This document shows, piece after piece, positions 15,749 to 27,403 of a stretch of DNA of 64,000 bases. The stretch is taken from NCBI GenBank assembly GCA_900107185.1, contig FNPA01000004.1:124001-188000 (forward strand). Reading direction: 5' to 3'. This stretch comes from Ruminococcaceae bacterium YAD3003. Lineage in GTDB: Bacteria > Bacillota > Clostridia > Saccharofermentanales > Saccharofermentanaceae. The notes beneath the pieces are model-generated. The model made no database searches and was not told where the DNA came from. It was given only the letters and a program-made list of their open reading frames with translations. Position numbers and translations under genes: made by a program. Positions within the stretch are counted from its first letter, which is position 1, and the number at the start of each line of letters is the position of its first letter.

Positions 15749-16666
15749 ATGAGTCTTAAGTATAGAATCATCAGGCGGATCGTAAAGCTTTTAAACATAA
15801 AGAAAGCCTGGGAAGGCAAGAGCGCCGAAGAGATCATCGAAAAGAAAAAACAGGAGAATGCACGAAATAAGATTCCGGTACTGAATGACCCGGATTTTGA
15901 GATAAGCAGGACAGATGTTATGGGTTTTATGGTTATCCGGATGATCCATAAAAAACACGTATCGCGTGCAACGCTGTTTCTCATTGGCGGCGGTATGGTT
16001 TCGGCTCCGAGACCTGATTCGGTAAAGAAAGCTCTGCGTTTTGCCAAAGAAACAGATATGGATGTCTTTGTTCCATATTATCCTCTTTGCACGGATTATC
16101 CTCTGACCAAAGCCTATGCGATGATACATGAGACCTATAAGGTCATGCTAAATGAATATGAAGCATCGGACATTACTATTCTCGGCACTTCGTCAGGCGG
16201 CAATCTTGCTCTTGGCATGATCCCTTATATCAATGACGGCCATGATGATACTCCCGTACCATCGCATATCATAGCCATTTCTCCGGGTACATGTGTTGAT
16301 ACAGATGAAGAGTGGCAGAAAATGCTTGAACTGAATAAAAAAGATATTGCTATACCGGCAAGTTACATGAAGACTGCAGAGATCATTATGAGACACGGAG
16401 ATGATTCTGTTCCGGATTATATGCTTTGGCTTCAAAAAGCTGATTTCAGCAACTGTCCTCATGTATCGTTTATGTATGGTTCGGATGAGACTCTCTATGC
16501 ATGTGCGCCTGCGATTGAGAAAGCTCTGAAGAAATGCGGAGTGGATTATGATATGACAGTAGGAGAAGGAATGTTCCATTGTTATCCTGTGTTTCCTCTG
16601 GTAAAGGAAGCAAAAGAAGGCTGGAAACAAATGGTTGAGATTGCCAGGAGGTCTTATGGCAGATAA
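15749..16666 (+). CDS. HSL-like alpha/beta hydrolase (copy 2)
   Basis: A 305-residue paralogue of the hydrolase at 14303. Nucleophile elbow GTSSGGNLALGM near residue 150, acid in YGSDETLYACAP near 245, His in EGMFHCYPVFP near 273. The oxyanion segment reads FLIGGGMVSAP rather than HGGG, so the leading His is missing in both copies. VPYYPLCTDYPLTKA matches the other copy's PLYPLCTD segment. GGGAGATAAGG lies upstream of the ATG. It overlaps the ATC-hydrolase-like gene that ends the operon. Esterase-type activity is likely, substrate unknown. Confidence 0.82.
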   Translation: MSLKYRIIRRIVKLLNIKKAWEGKSAEEIIEKKKQENARNKIPVLNDPDFEISRTDVMGFMVIRMIHKKHVSRATLFLIGGGMVSAPRPDSVKKALRFAKETDMDVFVPYYPLCTDYPLTKAYAMIHETYKVMLNEYEASDITILGTSSGGNLALGMIPYINDGHDDTPVPSHIIAISPGTCVDTDEEWQKMLELNKKDIAIPASYMKTAEIIMRHGDDSVPDYMLWLQKADFSNCPHVSFMYGSDETLYACAPAIEKALKKCGVDYDMTVGEGMFHCYPVFPLVKEAKEGWKQMVEIARRSYGR

Positions 16667-17433: not shown

Positions 17434-17604
17434 TCAGCCTTCAGCGATAGCGCCTGTAGGGCAGGAAGCTTCACAAGCTCCGCATGCTACACAAACATCA
17501 GCATCGATGTTGTACTGTGTCTCACCCTGGGAAATAGCTCCGACAGGGCAGCCGTCAGCGCAAGTGCCGCAAGATACGCAAGCGTCAGAAATTACATATG
17601 CCAT
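17434..17604 (-). CDS. 2[4Fe-4S] ferredoxin, clostridial type
   Basis: A 56-residue electron carrier, MAYVISDACVSCGTCADGCP at the N-terminus and then a second C-x2-C-x2-C-x3-CP cluster motif (CVACGACEASCPTGAIAEG). Both eight-cysteine sets are complete, so it carries two [4Fe-4S] clusters and serves low-potential electron transfer in the cytoplasm. AAGGAGG precedes the ATG. It stands alone on the minus strand between the ATC-hydrolase operon and TetR module 3. An iron-rich carrier next to a flavodoxin (24380), its usual iron-free substitute, is of interest when reading this locus as metal-linked. Confidence 0.93.
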   Translation of the reverse strand: MAYVISDACVSCGTCADGCPVGAISQGETQYNIDADVCVACGACEASCPTGAIAEG

Positions 17605-20314: not shown

Positions 20315-22041
20315 TGCTCGAAGCGATTAAAAAGATCATAGCTTTTTCCGGACCGGAAAAGGTCAGGATATATAGGGCGATAATAGTTGCATTTTTCAAA
20401 TCTTTGTTTTCGATGTTCAGGATGGCCGCAATCTATTTCGTGCTCCTGGCGTTTGAACAGGGCGATACGACAATGCAGCCTGCCTGGACAGCGCTTATCC
20501 TCTTAGGAATAAGTATTTTAGGTCAGTTCTTCCTTAAGATGATAGCTGACCTCCAGTCAGTTCACGCAGGATATTTTATGAGTGCTTATAAGCGTCTCGA
20601 AATAGCTGAAAGACTTAAGAAAGTCCCGATGGGCTATTTCAATGACAACAATCTTGAGCAGATCACAGGTATAGCCACAACGGTTCTTGATGTTGTTGAG
20701 AACCAGGGCGCAAATGTGCTTGTCCTTATCTTAAGCGGCCTGATGAATGCAGTTGTATTCTTATTCTGTGTATTGTTCTTTGATTGGAGACTTGGCCTCA
20801 TAGTATTTGCCGGAATGACGATCTATATGCTGATCACATCATCGATGGAGAAGAAGAGCCGCTCATTATCTCCTATCAGACAGAAGAACCAGGCCGCTCT
20901 CGTTTCCAAGGTTCTTGAGAGCCTTCAGGGAATGAGCGTTATCAAATCATTCAACCTGACAGGAAAGGGTGATGAAGCACTCAAGGAAGCAATAGATGGT
21001 AACCGCGACAGCAACATGGCCATGGAGAGATTGTTTATTCCTTATGCCAGGATCCAGGGCATTGTATTGGGAGCCTTTAAGGTTTTGATCATGCTTTTCG
21101 GTATTGCAATGTTTATTGCAGGAAACTTGACGATTACATATGCGCTTATAACGATAATCTTGTCATTTCAGATCTTCGCTGATATCGAACAGACAGGTGC
21201 GGGACTTACTGTTCTCAGAGTCGTATCAAGTTCCATCGAAGAAGCCGATAAGGTAAACCTTCTTCCGATTATGGACGAGAACGGAAAAGACTATGCACCT
21301 GATAACTACGGAATTGCGCTTAAGAATGTATCTTTTGCCTACGGCGATAATGAGATCCTGAATGACGTAAGCCTTGAGATACCTGAGAATACCATGACTG
21401 CCTTTGTCGGTCCGTCAGGAGCAGGAAAGACAACGCTCGCAATGCTTATTGCGCGTTTCTGGGATGTTAACGGAGGAAGTATCTCCATCGGAGGAAGAGA
21501 TGTAAGAGAATATACGCTCGAGAGCCTTATGTCACGGATAAGTGTGGTATTCCAGAATGTCTATCTTTTCGCTGATACGATAGAGAACAACATCAAGTTC
21601 GGTATGAGCGATGCAAGTCATGAAGATGTTGTAGCAGCTGCGAAAAAAGCCTGCTGTCACGACTTTATTATGTCACTGCCGGACGGATATTCAACAGTAA
21701 TTGGTGAAGGCGGTGCAACTCTTTCAGGCGGCGAGAAACAGAGAATATCTATTGCAAGAGCGATACTTAAGGATGCGCCCATCATCATCCTTGATGAAGC
21801 AACAGCTAATGTCGACCCTGAGAATGAGGATAAGCTGACAGCTGCATTTGATGCTCTCACAGACAAGAAGACTGTTATCATGATCGCTCACAGGCTCAAG
21901 ACTATCCGAAATGCAGATAAGATCGTTGTTATCGAAGGCGGTAAGATCAGCAGCGGAACTCATGACGAGTTGATGAGAAGCAATATGCGTTACATCAATT
22001 TCATTAAGCTGAGAGAAGAAGCAGCGAACTGGAAGATATAA
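20314..22041 (+). CDS. ABC half-transporter, second partner of pair 3
   Basis: A 575-residue partner protein. Walker A GPSGAGKTT near residue 365, signature LSGGEKQR near 469, DEATANVDPENE near 493 and IAHRLKT near 523, all intact. The ATG at 20314 overlaps the previous stop and has GGGGG about 9 bases before it; a longer frame from 20278 lies inside the partner gene. Six predicted helices in the first 310 residues, with FDWRLG in the middle as in the other copies. No clear T-run terminator follows, only a hairpin at 22084. Confidence 0.85.
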   Translation: MLEAIKKIIAFSGPEKVRIYRAIIVAFFKSLFSMFRMAAIYFVLLAFEQGDTTMQPAWTALILLGISILGQFFLKMIADLQSVHAGYFMSAYKRLEIAERLKKVPMGYFNDNNLEQITGIATTVLDVVENQGANVLVLILSGLMNAVVFLFCVLFFDWRLGLIVFAGMTIYMLITSSMEKKSRSLSPIRQKNQAALVSKVLESLQGMSVIKSFNLTGKGDEALKEAIDGNRDSNMAMERLFIPYARIQGIVLGAFKVLIMLFGIAMFIAGNLTITYALITIILSFQIFADIEQTGAGLTVLRVVSSSIEEADKVNLLPIMDENGKDYAPDNYGIALKNVSFAYGDNEILNDVSLEIPENTMTAFVGPSGAGKTTLAMLIARFWDVNGGSISIGGRDVREYTLESLMSRISVVFQNVYLFADTIENNIKFGMSDASHEDVVAAAKKACCHDFIMSLPDGYSTVIGEGGATLSGGEKQRISIARAILKDAPIIILDEATANVDPENEDKLTAAFDALTDKKTVIMIAHRLKTIRNADKIVVIEGGKISSGTHDELMRSNMRYINFIKLREEAANWKI

Positions 22042-22083
22042 CCTGTATTCAAATATTAAGGAACTGCAAGAAAAATGGGTTAT

Positions 22084-22124
22084 CGACATATGTTGTTTTC
22101 GAACAATATTAACGGCATATGTCG
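22084..22124. other. Inverted repeat downstream of ABC pair 3
   Basis: Nine-base arms CGACATATG/CATATGTCG enclose a smaller TTGTT-TTCG-AACAA hairpin. No T-run follows. May end or stabilise the ABC transcript. Confidence 0.4.
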
Positions 22125-22142
22125 GAAATCGGAAAAATCCCA

Positions 22143-22170
22143 TTGAATTAGTGGGATTAATCAATATAAT
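22143..22170 (+). promoter_or_regulatory. Probable promoter of the non-coding RNA
   Basis: TTGAAT (22143-22148), 16-base spacer, perfect TATAAT (22165-22170). The -35 is in the loop of a small inverted repeat (AATCCCA 22136-22142, TGGGATT 22152-22158) that could be an operator. Confidence 0.5.
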
Positions 22171-22176
22171 AAGCTC

Positions 22177-22352
22177 ATGCCATAAAAACCGATTGAGGTA
22201 TCCGAAATAGAGCCCATGTGTTGTTGAAAACGATTCGGGATCTATAGCGCGTGTTGAGTAAACAACACTTCTATCAGCCTCGATTGAATGATGTTCTTAA
22301 AATTCTTAACATCATAAAGGAGAGTCCGGAGATAAAAACTCCGGACTTTTTT
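22177..22352 (+). ncRNA. Candidate structured non-coding RNA, about 175 nt
   Basis: No convincing frame lies here, yet three base-paired elements follow one another. First is a long imperfect rod: CGATTGAGG (about 22190-22198) can pair with CCTCGATTG (22279-22287), including two G-U pairs, and inside it GTGTTGTT pairs with AACAACAC. Next is a perfect 8-base hairpin ATGATGTT/AACATCAT (22288-22315). Last is a strong terminator, AGTCCGGAG/CTCCGGACT with T-run (22323-22352). A promoter-like TTGAAT-16-TATAAT lies upstream. A new promoter begins behind the terminator, so this looks like a free small RNA, not a leader. Size and rod shape allow a 6S-like RNA, but I do not recognise a known family. 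Confidence 0.5.
22323..22352 (+). terminator. Terminator of the candidate RNA
   Basis: Nine-base perfect stem AGTCCGGAG/CTCCGGACT with a short A-rich loop, followed by a T-run. Confidence 0.85.
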
Positions 22353-22363
22353 GTGCATATAGA

Positions 22364-22394
22364 GTTAGATAAGACTAACTTTGCGTGATAGAAT
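22364..22394 (+). promoter_or_regulatory. Promoter with GTTAG-N6-CTAAC site 4
   Basis: Palindrome at 22364-22379 (spacer ATAAGA) and TAGAAT at 22389-22394. The distance from palindrome start to -10 is 25 bases, exactly as at 10316/10341, so in both cases the -35 window is inside the palindrome. Confidence 0.68.
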
Positions 22395-22433
22395 AATCAG
22401 CAACGGATGTATAGATATGGCAAGAGGTATCAG

Positions 22434-23009
22434 ATGGATCAGCAGAAACAGATTCACAAGTGGCTCAATAAAATAATACCCGGTGATGCTGAGAGAATAT
22501 TTTATTCGCAGTCATCGATATATAGTGACTGTGTCTTGTCACTCAAAGGTAAGAGTCCAAATCAGTATAAAACCCTAACAAAAACAATCTTACCGCGAGT
22601 TGCTTTATATAAAGCTCTTAAAGCCGATATCAAGTTGTCATCACAAGCTTATGATTTGATTCATAAATATATGGTCGAAGTAATCGGTATGCAAAAGCAT
22701 AAGAGCACAAGGGTTCTTGAGATCATTCCGGGTTTTTACAGAATATACAGCAGGTCTTTTTTAAAGATTATGAGGACAACGGATCTTCAAAAGAGCACGC
22801 AGGAAGAGGGAAAAGACTATTACGATATAACGATAACCAATTGTCTTTGGCATAACGCATGCAAGGAATTCGGATGCCCGGAATTGTGTGCTGCTTTTTG
22901 TGATGTTGACGATATAACATATGGAAATTTAAAAAAGATTGGTTTCACAAGGTCACAGACACTAGGTAAAGGAGGAGAATGCTGCGACTTCCATTTCTAT
23001 AAGAAGTGA
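22434..23009 (+). CDS. ATC-hydrolase-like protein (copy 4)
   Basis: A 191-residue soluble protein with the most canonical family ending in the window: TNCLWHNACKEFGCPELC, AAFCDVDDITYGNL, FTRSQTLGKGGECCDFHFYKK. The ATG at 22434 is preferred because AAGAGG is 6 bases upstream; the ATG at 22407 would leave almost no leader after the -10 at 22389. It is coupled to a second, divergent paralogue. Under the GTTAG palindrome promoter. Predicted cytoplasmic hydrolase; the thiazoline substrate is inferred from the family name. Confidence 0.76.
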   Translation: MDQQKQIHKWLNKIIPGDAERIFYSQSSIYSDCVLSLKGKSPNQYKTLTKTILPRVALYKALKADIKLSSQAYDLIHKYMVEVIGMQKHKSTRVLEIIPGFYRIYSRSFLKIMRTTDLQKSTQEEGKDYYDITITNCLWHNACKEFGCPELCAAFCDVDDITYGNLKKIGFTRSQTLGKGGECCDFHFYKK

Positions 23010-27040: not shown

Positions 27041-27403
27041 ATGTGTCTTAGAGAGTCCGGCGAGATGTATCTTGAGACTATTATGGTGCTCTCAGAAGGT
27101 GGAGCTCCTGTCCGCTCGTTGGATGTAGCTAATCACTTGGGTTTTTCAAAACCGAGTGTCAGCCGCGCCATGGGAAAACTTAAGTCAGAGAACTACATAG
27201 TTATTGATTCTCAAGGCTATATAACACTAACGGAAAAAGGGAATAGTATCGCAAAGAAAATCCTTGAGAAAAGATTCGTTCTGAAAGAACTGATCATGTC
27301 TCTGGGAGTAGATGAAGAAACAGCTGCAAACGATGCGTGTAGAATAGAACATGTATTAAGTGATAAAACGTTCAGTGCTTTGAAAGCGTATAGCAAGAAA
27401 TAA
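27041..27403 (+). CDS. DtxR/MntR-type metal-dependent regulator
   Basis: A 120-residue regulator. The first 70 residues form the winged helix typical of DtxR/MntR: RESGEMYLETIM, then GFSKPSVSRAMGKL as recognition helix, and ENYIVIDSQGYITLTEKG as wing. The dimerisation part has LKELIMSLGVDEETA and DACRIEHVLSD, which hold the Glu/His metal ligands of the family. It is short, lacking any SH3-like third domain, so closer to MntR than to DtxR. Expected to bind Mn or Fe and repress uptake genes. It is the only metal-type regulator in the window and a candidate reader of the GTTAG palindromes, but no such site lies in front of itself. TTTGGAGG precedes the ATG. Confidence 0.85.
   Translation: MCLRESGEMYLETIMVLSEGGAPVRSLDVANHLGFSKPSVSRAMGKLKSENYIVIDSQGYITLTEKGNSIAKKILEKRFVLKELIMSLGVDEETAANDACRIEHVLSDKTFSALKAYSKK

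Follow-up and report, generated by a model that had tools for sequence, protein, structure and literature searches.

FsrA of Bacillus subtilis, RyhB of Escherichia coli and PrrF of Pseudomonas are small RNAs (sRNAs) that work in an iron-sparing manner. We know of no sRNA that has been studied in the Saccharofermentans group and a narrow literature search returned none, nor any description of the RNA presented here. The iron-sparing sRNA of staphylococci is IsrR, for which Fur boxes in the promoter, C-rich motifs and detection in all Staphylococcus genomes screened are reported (PMC9410917). By comparison of descriptions, the RNA of this locus resembles IsrR as a small RNA of a low-GC Gram-positive bacterium that has stem-loops and ends in a Rho-independent terminator, in which single-stranded segments would pair with Shine-Dalgarno and start regions and the predicted targets include iron-sulphur enzymes, whereas it differs in the lack of a DtxR-type box at its promoter, in carrying a AUGCCAUAAAAACC tail rather than C-rich loops and in its patchy distribution (PMC9410917). 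6S RNA is described as a central single-stranded bubble flanked by a closing stem and a terminal loop (PMC4064990).

The RNA gene and its signals

The window, namely the whole stretch of 64,000 nucleotides of DNA that was analysed, holds an ABC-transporter gene that ends at 22041 and an ATC-hydrolase gene whose probable start is the ATG at 22434, and between them lie the following features.

22143 to 22170, + strand: sigma-A type promoter TTGAAT-16-TATAAT (-35 TTGAAT at 22143-22148, spacer of 16 nt, -10 TATAAT at 22165-22170), from a consensus scan, with the -10 kept in homologs
22177 to 22352, + strand: small RNA gene of ~175 nt, from fold energy against shuffles, covariance-model matches and conservation in homologs
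22177 to 22189, + strand: 5' tail AUGCCAUAAAAAC, unpaired in the predicted fold and conserved, a candidate base-pairing seed
22190 to 22286, + strand: rod with closing stem 22190-22199/22277-22286 and alternative folds A and B
22288-22295/22308-22315, + strand: perfect 8-bp hairpin AUGAUGUU/AACAUCAU, with 98.8% of cells paired and seven of eight pairs invariant
22318 to 22352, + strand: intrinsic terminator, with a hairpin z of -5.1 and double changes among homologs

The element is very probably a conserved, independently transcribed sRNA gene of ~175 nt, a reading in which sequence comparison gives us high confidence, and its start is predicted at 22177. The preliminary description had placed an RNA in this interval, with the promoter given above, a long imperfect rod, a perfect 8-base hairpin and a strong terminator, and every one of these parts was borne out, with the qualification that the rod can be folded in two mutually exclusive ways. 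The gap of 365 bases that it had called gene-free indeed contains no + strand ORF of at least 60 aa between 22041 and 22407, but its extent is rather 22042-22433, and a minus-strand frame of 146 aa (21724-22164) reaches into it. Folding of 22177-22355 gave -57.4 kcal/mol; 200 shuffles gave -34.3 (sd 3.85), with none as low (z -6.0), and the ten homologs found in related genomes, folded without the terminator, also beat their shuffles (z -2.8 to -4.8, with at most 2/100 as low). In a consensus scan taken by itself the promoter does not exceed chance (4 sites found vs 2.9 expected), and the terminator hairpin appears in the scanner output on the minus strand only; despite this weak scanning result both signals are credible because they are conserved in ten genomes. 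The -10 reads TATAAT in nine of the ten homologs and TACAAT in one. The terminator occurs in two versions among nine homologs, set apart from each other by double changes in two places of the stem, and a wholly different helix is found in the tenth (G007). Conservation of all three parts, promoter, RNA body and terminator, across the ten homologs supports an sRNA gene, and an independent promoter with an intrinsic terminator, as expected of an iron-sparing sRNA, is thereby found by sequence conservation.

The tail is nearly invariant, as TGCCAT and the next four A are present in 10/10 homologs, with G as the first base in two genomes (G100 and G061). The 5' end, AUG CCA UAA (GUG CCA UAA where the first base is G), is also a possible frame of two codons without a leader, and ribosomes might bind to this frame itself. 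A coding reading of the element was rejected, since by eye in the homolog alignment the lengths run from 143 to 147 nt, gap lengths are not divisible by three and no short frame is kept.

Mean pairwise identity reaches 0.90 in both the tail and the hairpin and 0.85 in the rod; the terminator has 0.66 and the bases directly after it 0.56, and upstream it is 0.75 in a pair of palindromes and 0.72 from a dyad to the -10. These values bear on the view that the locus is a non-coding DNA element, made of regulator sites and a terminator without a functional RNA. The upstream palindromes are dyads of the DNA type, as this view would have it, and the transcript is a prediction from sequence, but identity in the RNA body (0.85-0.90) exceeds that of the dyads (0.72-0.75) and double changes are seen in the terminator and the closing stem, and hence we consider it very improbable.

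Relatives, regulator sites and neighbouring genes

The first DNA search, in 59 genomes, returned two strong matches besides the RNA itself (G004 and G007). A covariance model built on three sequences found the RNA in 10/85 genomes of the genus, and in 6/46 of the good ones among them, and a model built on all ten sequences, run on 188 genomes of the order, recovered these ten and no others, in one of 30 genera; covariance searches of more than 40 genomes used stricter filters, and therefore weak relatives may be missed. When named genomes were scanned with a core pattern, eight contigs came up, labelled Saccharofermentans (3), Ruminococcaceae (2), Clostridia (1), Oscillospiraceae (1) and Clostridiales (1), which matched eight homologs already found; one of them is JHXJ01000007.1 of Ruminococcaceae bacterium AB4001. 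Judged from these matches, the RNA is a new and unnamed family of ten members. Its bearers are probably rumen bacteria, with red deer and goat omasum as two of the sources. Seven bearers have a usable rpoB (in the other three it is incomplete or missing), and in a tree of this gene from 25 genomes they lie scattered within one clade of 14; presence of the RNA requires 5 changes, as against a mean of 6.3 in shuffles, 74/500 of which were as low. No match was found in viral contigs, by the exact core pattern, or in plasmids or phages. In G007 (L020 from ~3690) a transposase-like frame, presumably of the IS200/IS605 kind, starts behind the RNA, and the metal box described below is absent there.

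The preliminary description had considered a 6S-like RNA, and had proposed a covariance search of Rfam including 6S. In that search no family reached its gathering score in the window, and the 6S model RF00013 gave no match there. The RNA does share with 6S RNA its size, its rod and a clean promoter and terminator, and since RF00013 also finds no 6S RNA in the bacterium's own genome, the slot of a housekeeping 6S RNA of the genus looks empty, although this is a weak negative, as the control was found in only 5/14 known genomes. Against this stand the small internal loops, with no large central bubble, of both predicted folds of the rod, and the accessory distribution of the RNA, which is unlike the near-universal presence of 6S RNA: it occurs in 10/85 genomes of the genus and 10/188 of the order and, under the stricter filters, was not found in 75/85 genus genomes, including 40/46 good ones. 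Lack of a model match, patchy distribution and lack of a central bubble speak against 6S RNA, and a housekeeping role of this kind is exceedingly improbable. The highest sub-threshold Rfam match was to HrrF (RF02728), itself an iron-responsive sRNA, with 23 bits in the window vs a gathering score of 77 and 27.5 bits in one homolog among the seven of ten scanned; it is far below gathering, its alignment lies mainly on the terminator, and it was taken as chance.

Upstream of the RNA promoter and behind its terminator, three further elements can be read.

22084 to 22124, no strand: two 12-bp palindromes, 29 bp apart, 5' of the RNA promoter (CGACATATGTtG at 22084-22095 and CGgCATATGTCG at 22113-22124)
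22136 to 22158, no strand: dyad AATCCCA-N9-TGGGATT over the -35 region, a possible operator read from the sequence
22363 to 22394, + strand: the ATC-hydrolase gene's own, separate promoter, containing dyad AGTTAGATAAGACTAACT (22363-22380), a putative DtxR/MntR-type box

The palindrome pair is probably a regulator site. Both palindromes, which are centred on CATATG, are recognisable in 7/10 homologs and one of them in two more, while they are degenerate in G106, and the pair could alternatively form a strong hairpin of 14 bp (z -5.1). A genome-wide regulon of CGACATATGTCG showed no enrichment (8 per strand vs 6 in the control), and among the genome-wide matches a close pair of such palindromes occurs only at 22084-22124. 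The arms of the dyad over the -35 region vary among homologs, with symmetry partly kept. No DtxR-type box was found within ~250 bases upstream of the RNA in 9/10 homologs, in a search for AGTTAGN6CTAACT with up to three mismatches; the exception is G106, with one site of two mismatches near -192 of the RNA. A divergent gene for a KilA-N domain protein (L066:10311-11150 and its counterpart on L067) adjoins the RNA in G068 and G064, and these two genomes keep just one of the two palindromes.

Behind the RNA, the preliminary description had set a separate promoter 12 bases after the terminator, and this promoter is present, but its signals begin 11-14 bases after. An AGTTAG-N6-CTAACT dyad (at most two mismatches) follows the RNA in 9/10 loci, at ~+182 to +186 in eight of them and at +221 in G068, with none in G007. 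Six GTTAG-N6-CTAAC boxes with at most two mismatches are found in the window vs 2.3 expected, a number reached by 4/100 shuffles.

779, 6730, 10315, 18535, 22363 and 23737: GTTAG-N6-CTAAC dyads, each at most 90 bases before an open frame

They probably mark a metal regulon, made up of genes of the TetR, ABC and ATC-hydrolase-like kinds. Across the genome AGTTAGN6CTAACT is not enriched by count, because it occurs in 10 places vs 9 in the control, with 5/10 places on one contig (C12). The gene at 27041 passes the Pfam cut-offs for Fe_dep_repress, with MntR as its best NCBIfam match, below cut-off, and we infer that a regulator of the DtxR/MntR family may bind the boxes, with iron or manganese as the metal. 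The likeness of the box to known DtxR sites such as TTAGGTTAGCCAAACCTTT (PMC524172) is partial.

Neighbouring genes were clustered by similarity and their families called on representatives; in G007 the contig runs for just 451 bases beyond the RNA core. At up to 10 kb from the RNA, genes for ABC exporters are found in 9/10 loci, for ATC hydrolases in 8/10, for regulators of the DtxR/MntR family in 7/10, for one type of ferredoxin in 6/10 and for FeoA/FeoB in 3/10, in varying combinations. Several proteins of the ATC-hydrolase family are encoded in one locus, at 16635, 22407 and 23006 in the window. The RNA lies directly upstream of the ATC-hydrolase gene on the same strand, ends in a terminator and is followed by an ATC-hydrolase gene in 7/10 loci, as would be expected of a cis-acting leader or riboswitch of that operon. 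However, the next listed gene in G068 encodes a protein with a sub-threshold TIM-barrel match, the first listed gene in G064, ~700 bases downstream, is ZnuA-like (in G007 the contig ends), a separate promoter with its dyad stands between the terminator and the gene, and no Rfam riboswitch matches. Because the following gene differs and the separate promoter dyad comes after the terminator in 9/10 loci, a leader is unlikely; this reading is largely refuted and we rate it highly improbable. A stand-alone RNA, which the preliminary description had preferred to a riboswitch, is supported by its own promoter, by the double changes in the terminator and by the differing genes behind it, and its further suggestion of an sRNA of the locus fits. 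The RNA is most likely a trans-acting sRNA.

Two competing folds of the rod

The rod contains repeated segments (GUGUUG twice and UCUAU twice), which are used by two mutually exclusive folds.

22207-22212/22269-22274 and 22218-22225/22261-22268, + strand: extra stems of fold B, from the RNAalifold consensus, pairing AUAGAG with the second UUCUAU and GUGUUGUU with AACAACAC
from 22207 with 22241-22245, and 22251-22256/22263-22268, + strand: stems of fold A, from energy folding, pairing AUAGA with the first UCUAU and forming the hairpin GUGUUG/CAACAC

Fold A has the lowest energy in 9/10 homologs and lies below fold B in all ten, by 1.3-7.2 kcal/mol; in the remaining one (L054) a third fold is lowest and A still lies below B. 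In fold B, 98.7% of cells are paired and three pairs are changed on both sides, and its covariation score was reached by 0/500 shuffles, a test made on the same alignment from which the fold was derived. Its number of changed pairs was reached by 52/500 shuffles and its number of pair types by 219/500, and hence the covariation is suggestive only. In fold A, 95.3% of cells are paired, part of the loss being, to the eye, a register shift of the alignment, and two pairs are changed on both sides; its covariation score was reached by 3/500 shuffles and its number of changed pairs by 209/500. The comparison leans to fold B and the energy to fold A, and a switch between the two is possible in terms of these models. 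Double changes occur in the closing stem as well. Of the compensatory changes that the preliminary description had proposed to look for in orthologous gaps, those in the terminator are present, while those in the rod are just suggestive.

The rod could also be the working part of a structured sRNA that binds a protein, or RNA polymerase in the manner of 6S RNA, with the two folds as a switch and any pairing of the tail incidental. Strong sequence conservation of the rod would suit such a role, as would the mutually exclusive folds built from repeated segments, of which B is the more paired (98.7% vs 95.3%) and A the lower in energy, but RNAs often have alternative folds that are close in energy, and the polymerase variant again meets the missing 6S match in Rfam, the presence in 10/85 genomes and the absence of a large central bubble from either fold. 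We regard a protein-binding role as somewhat less likely than action through the tail. A further and improbable view combines the folds with the tail: the family would be bistable, with two folds from repeated segments and a tail directed against start codons, by which the iron-sulphur enzymes of fermentation would be silenced ([FeFe] hydrogenase, 2-oxoacid:ferredoxin oxidoreductase and ferredoxin), carried on an accessory metal locus of Saccharofermentans-group bacteria.

Predicted pairing of the 5' tail with start sites

A lineage-specific sRNA gene that acts through pairing of its tail with start sites is the best explanation of the locus as a whole, although we hold it tentatively. The single-stranded tail AUGCCAUAAAAACC would pair with U-rich ribosome-binding and start regions of the form GG-UUUUU-AUGGCA and block the entry of ribosomes, and the rod and the hairpin would serve as a stable scaffold. 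Candidate targets are vorDB, the [FeFe] hydrogenase operon led by hydC, a ferredoxin and perhaps pyruvate:ferredoxin oxidoreductase, and with such targets the RNA would be an sRNA of the iron- or redox-sparing kind, belonging to an accessory locus under metal control. If these iron-sulphur targets are real, it would work as FsrA, RyhB and PrrF do, but no Rfam family lies above threshold for it.

The complement of the tail, GGUUUUUAUGGCAU, has the form of a ribosome-binding site with a start. In the 2.67-Mb genome the exact 12-mer TTTTTATGGCAT is found in three places, namely at the start of a ferredoxin gene, in the RNA itself and at one non-start.

17434 to 17604, - strand: gene for a 4Fe-4S ferredoxin of 56 aa, a candidate target that passes NF058577 and whose start pairs over 12 bp with the tail

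This start lies 4.6 kb from the RNA. With its 56 aa the ferredoxin falls under the 60-aa cut-off for ORFs and is overlapped by other frames, and it is easily missed in annotation. When one mismatch was allowed there were 32 matches, and among the 29 inspected by eye the start of vorB was the sole other one with a clear Shine-Dalgarno sequence. It pairs over 13 bp with the tail (-18.6 kcal/mol), and the preceding gene, which we call vorD from its position and cysteine motifs, pairs over 13 bp with a bulge (-15.0 kcal/mol). The start of hydC pairs over 12 bp (-17.6 kcal/mol) and ranked first of 644 start sites from 864 kb, a rank that is not blind because its contig (C17) entered the sample after the site had been seen. 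Its product is NuoE-like, below the NCBIfam cut-offs; next come NuoF- and [FeFe]-hydrogenase genes, which do pass their own cut-offs. Second in this ranking came an ORF of 323 aa (-14.9), and pyruvate:ferredoxin oxidoreductase was seventh (-11.6, tied with two others); the 56-aa ferredoxin had been missed by the gene caller and was added by hand, and an earlier ranking, on loci partly chosen by the motif itself, was set aside. The [FeFe] hydrogenase operon has a perfect GTTAG-N6-CTAAC dyad (L209:2797-2814) in front of hydC, at a distance of 61-78 bases.

With shuffled tails the best energy was reached by 0/100, the mean energy by 17/100 and the count of sites at or below -12 by 18/100. Iron-sulphur genes, defined by motif in the first sample (5/644 genes), did not pair significantly better (p = 0.21). 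When 297 further start sites were sampled afresh, from 400 kb, an AAA-type ATPase came first (-17.6), no recognised iron-sulphur gene was among the top 20, of which only the first is annotated, and one motif-bearing gene ranked 98. Nor was there an excess in genomes that bear the RNA: the exact 12-mer is found at ferredoxin starts in 5/16 cases from bearers vs 4/10 from non-bearers (26 of 30 loci listed), and five or more U precede the AUG of vorB in 3/10 bearers vs 5/9 non-bearers, the tail of G000 being used for genomes without the RNA. The complementary start sites are partly generic, with a U-rich spacer followed by Met-Ala.

Antisense action at start sites is the most likely mechanism, and for an iron-sparing target set our confidence is low. 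Pairing of the tail with the starts of vorB, hydC and ferredoxin suggests an iron-sparing role, as a lead and not as proof, and that the tail blocks the start sites of iron-sulphur operons remains a doubtful proposal. If it is correct, an accessory RNA would link metal supply to the enzymes of hydrogen metabolism and fermentation, and if the family is in addition bistable, some species would possess a sparing response that is absent from their near relatives.
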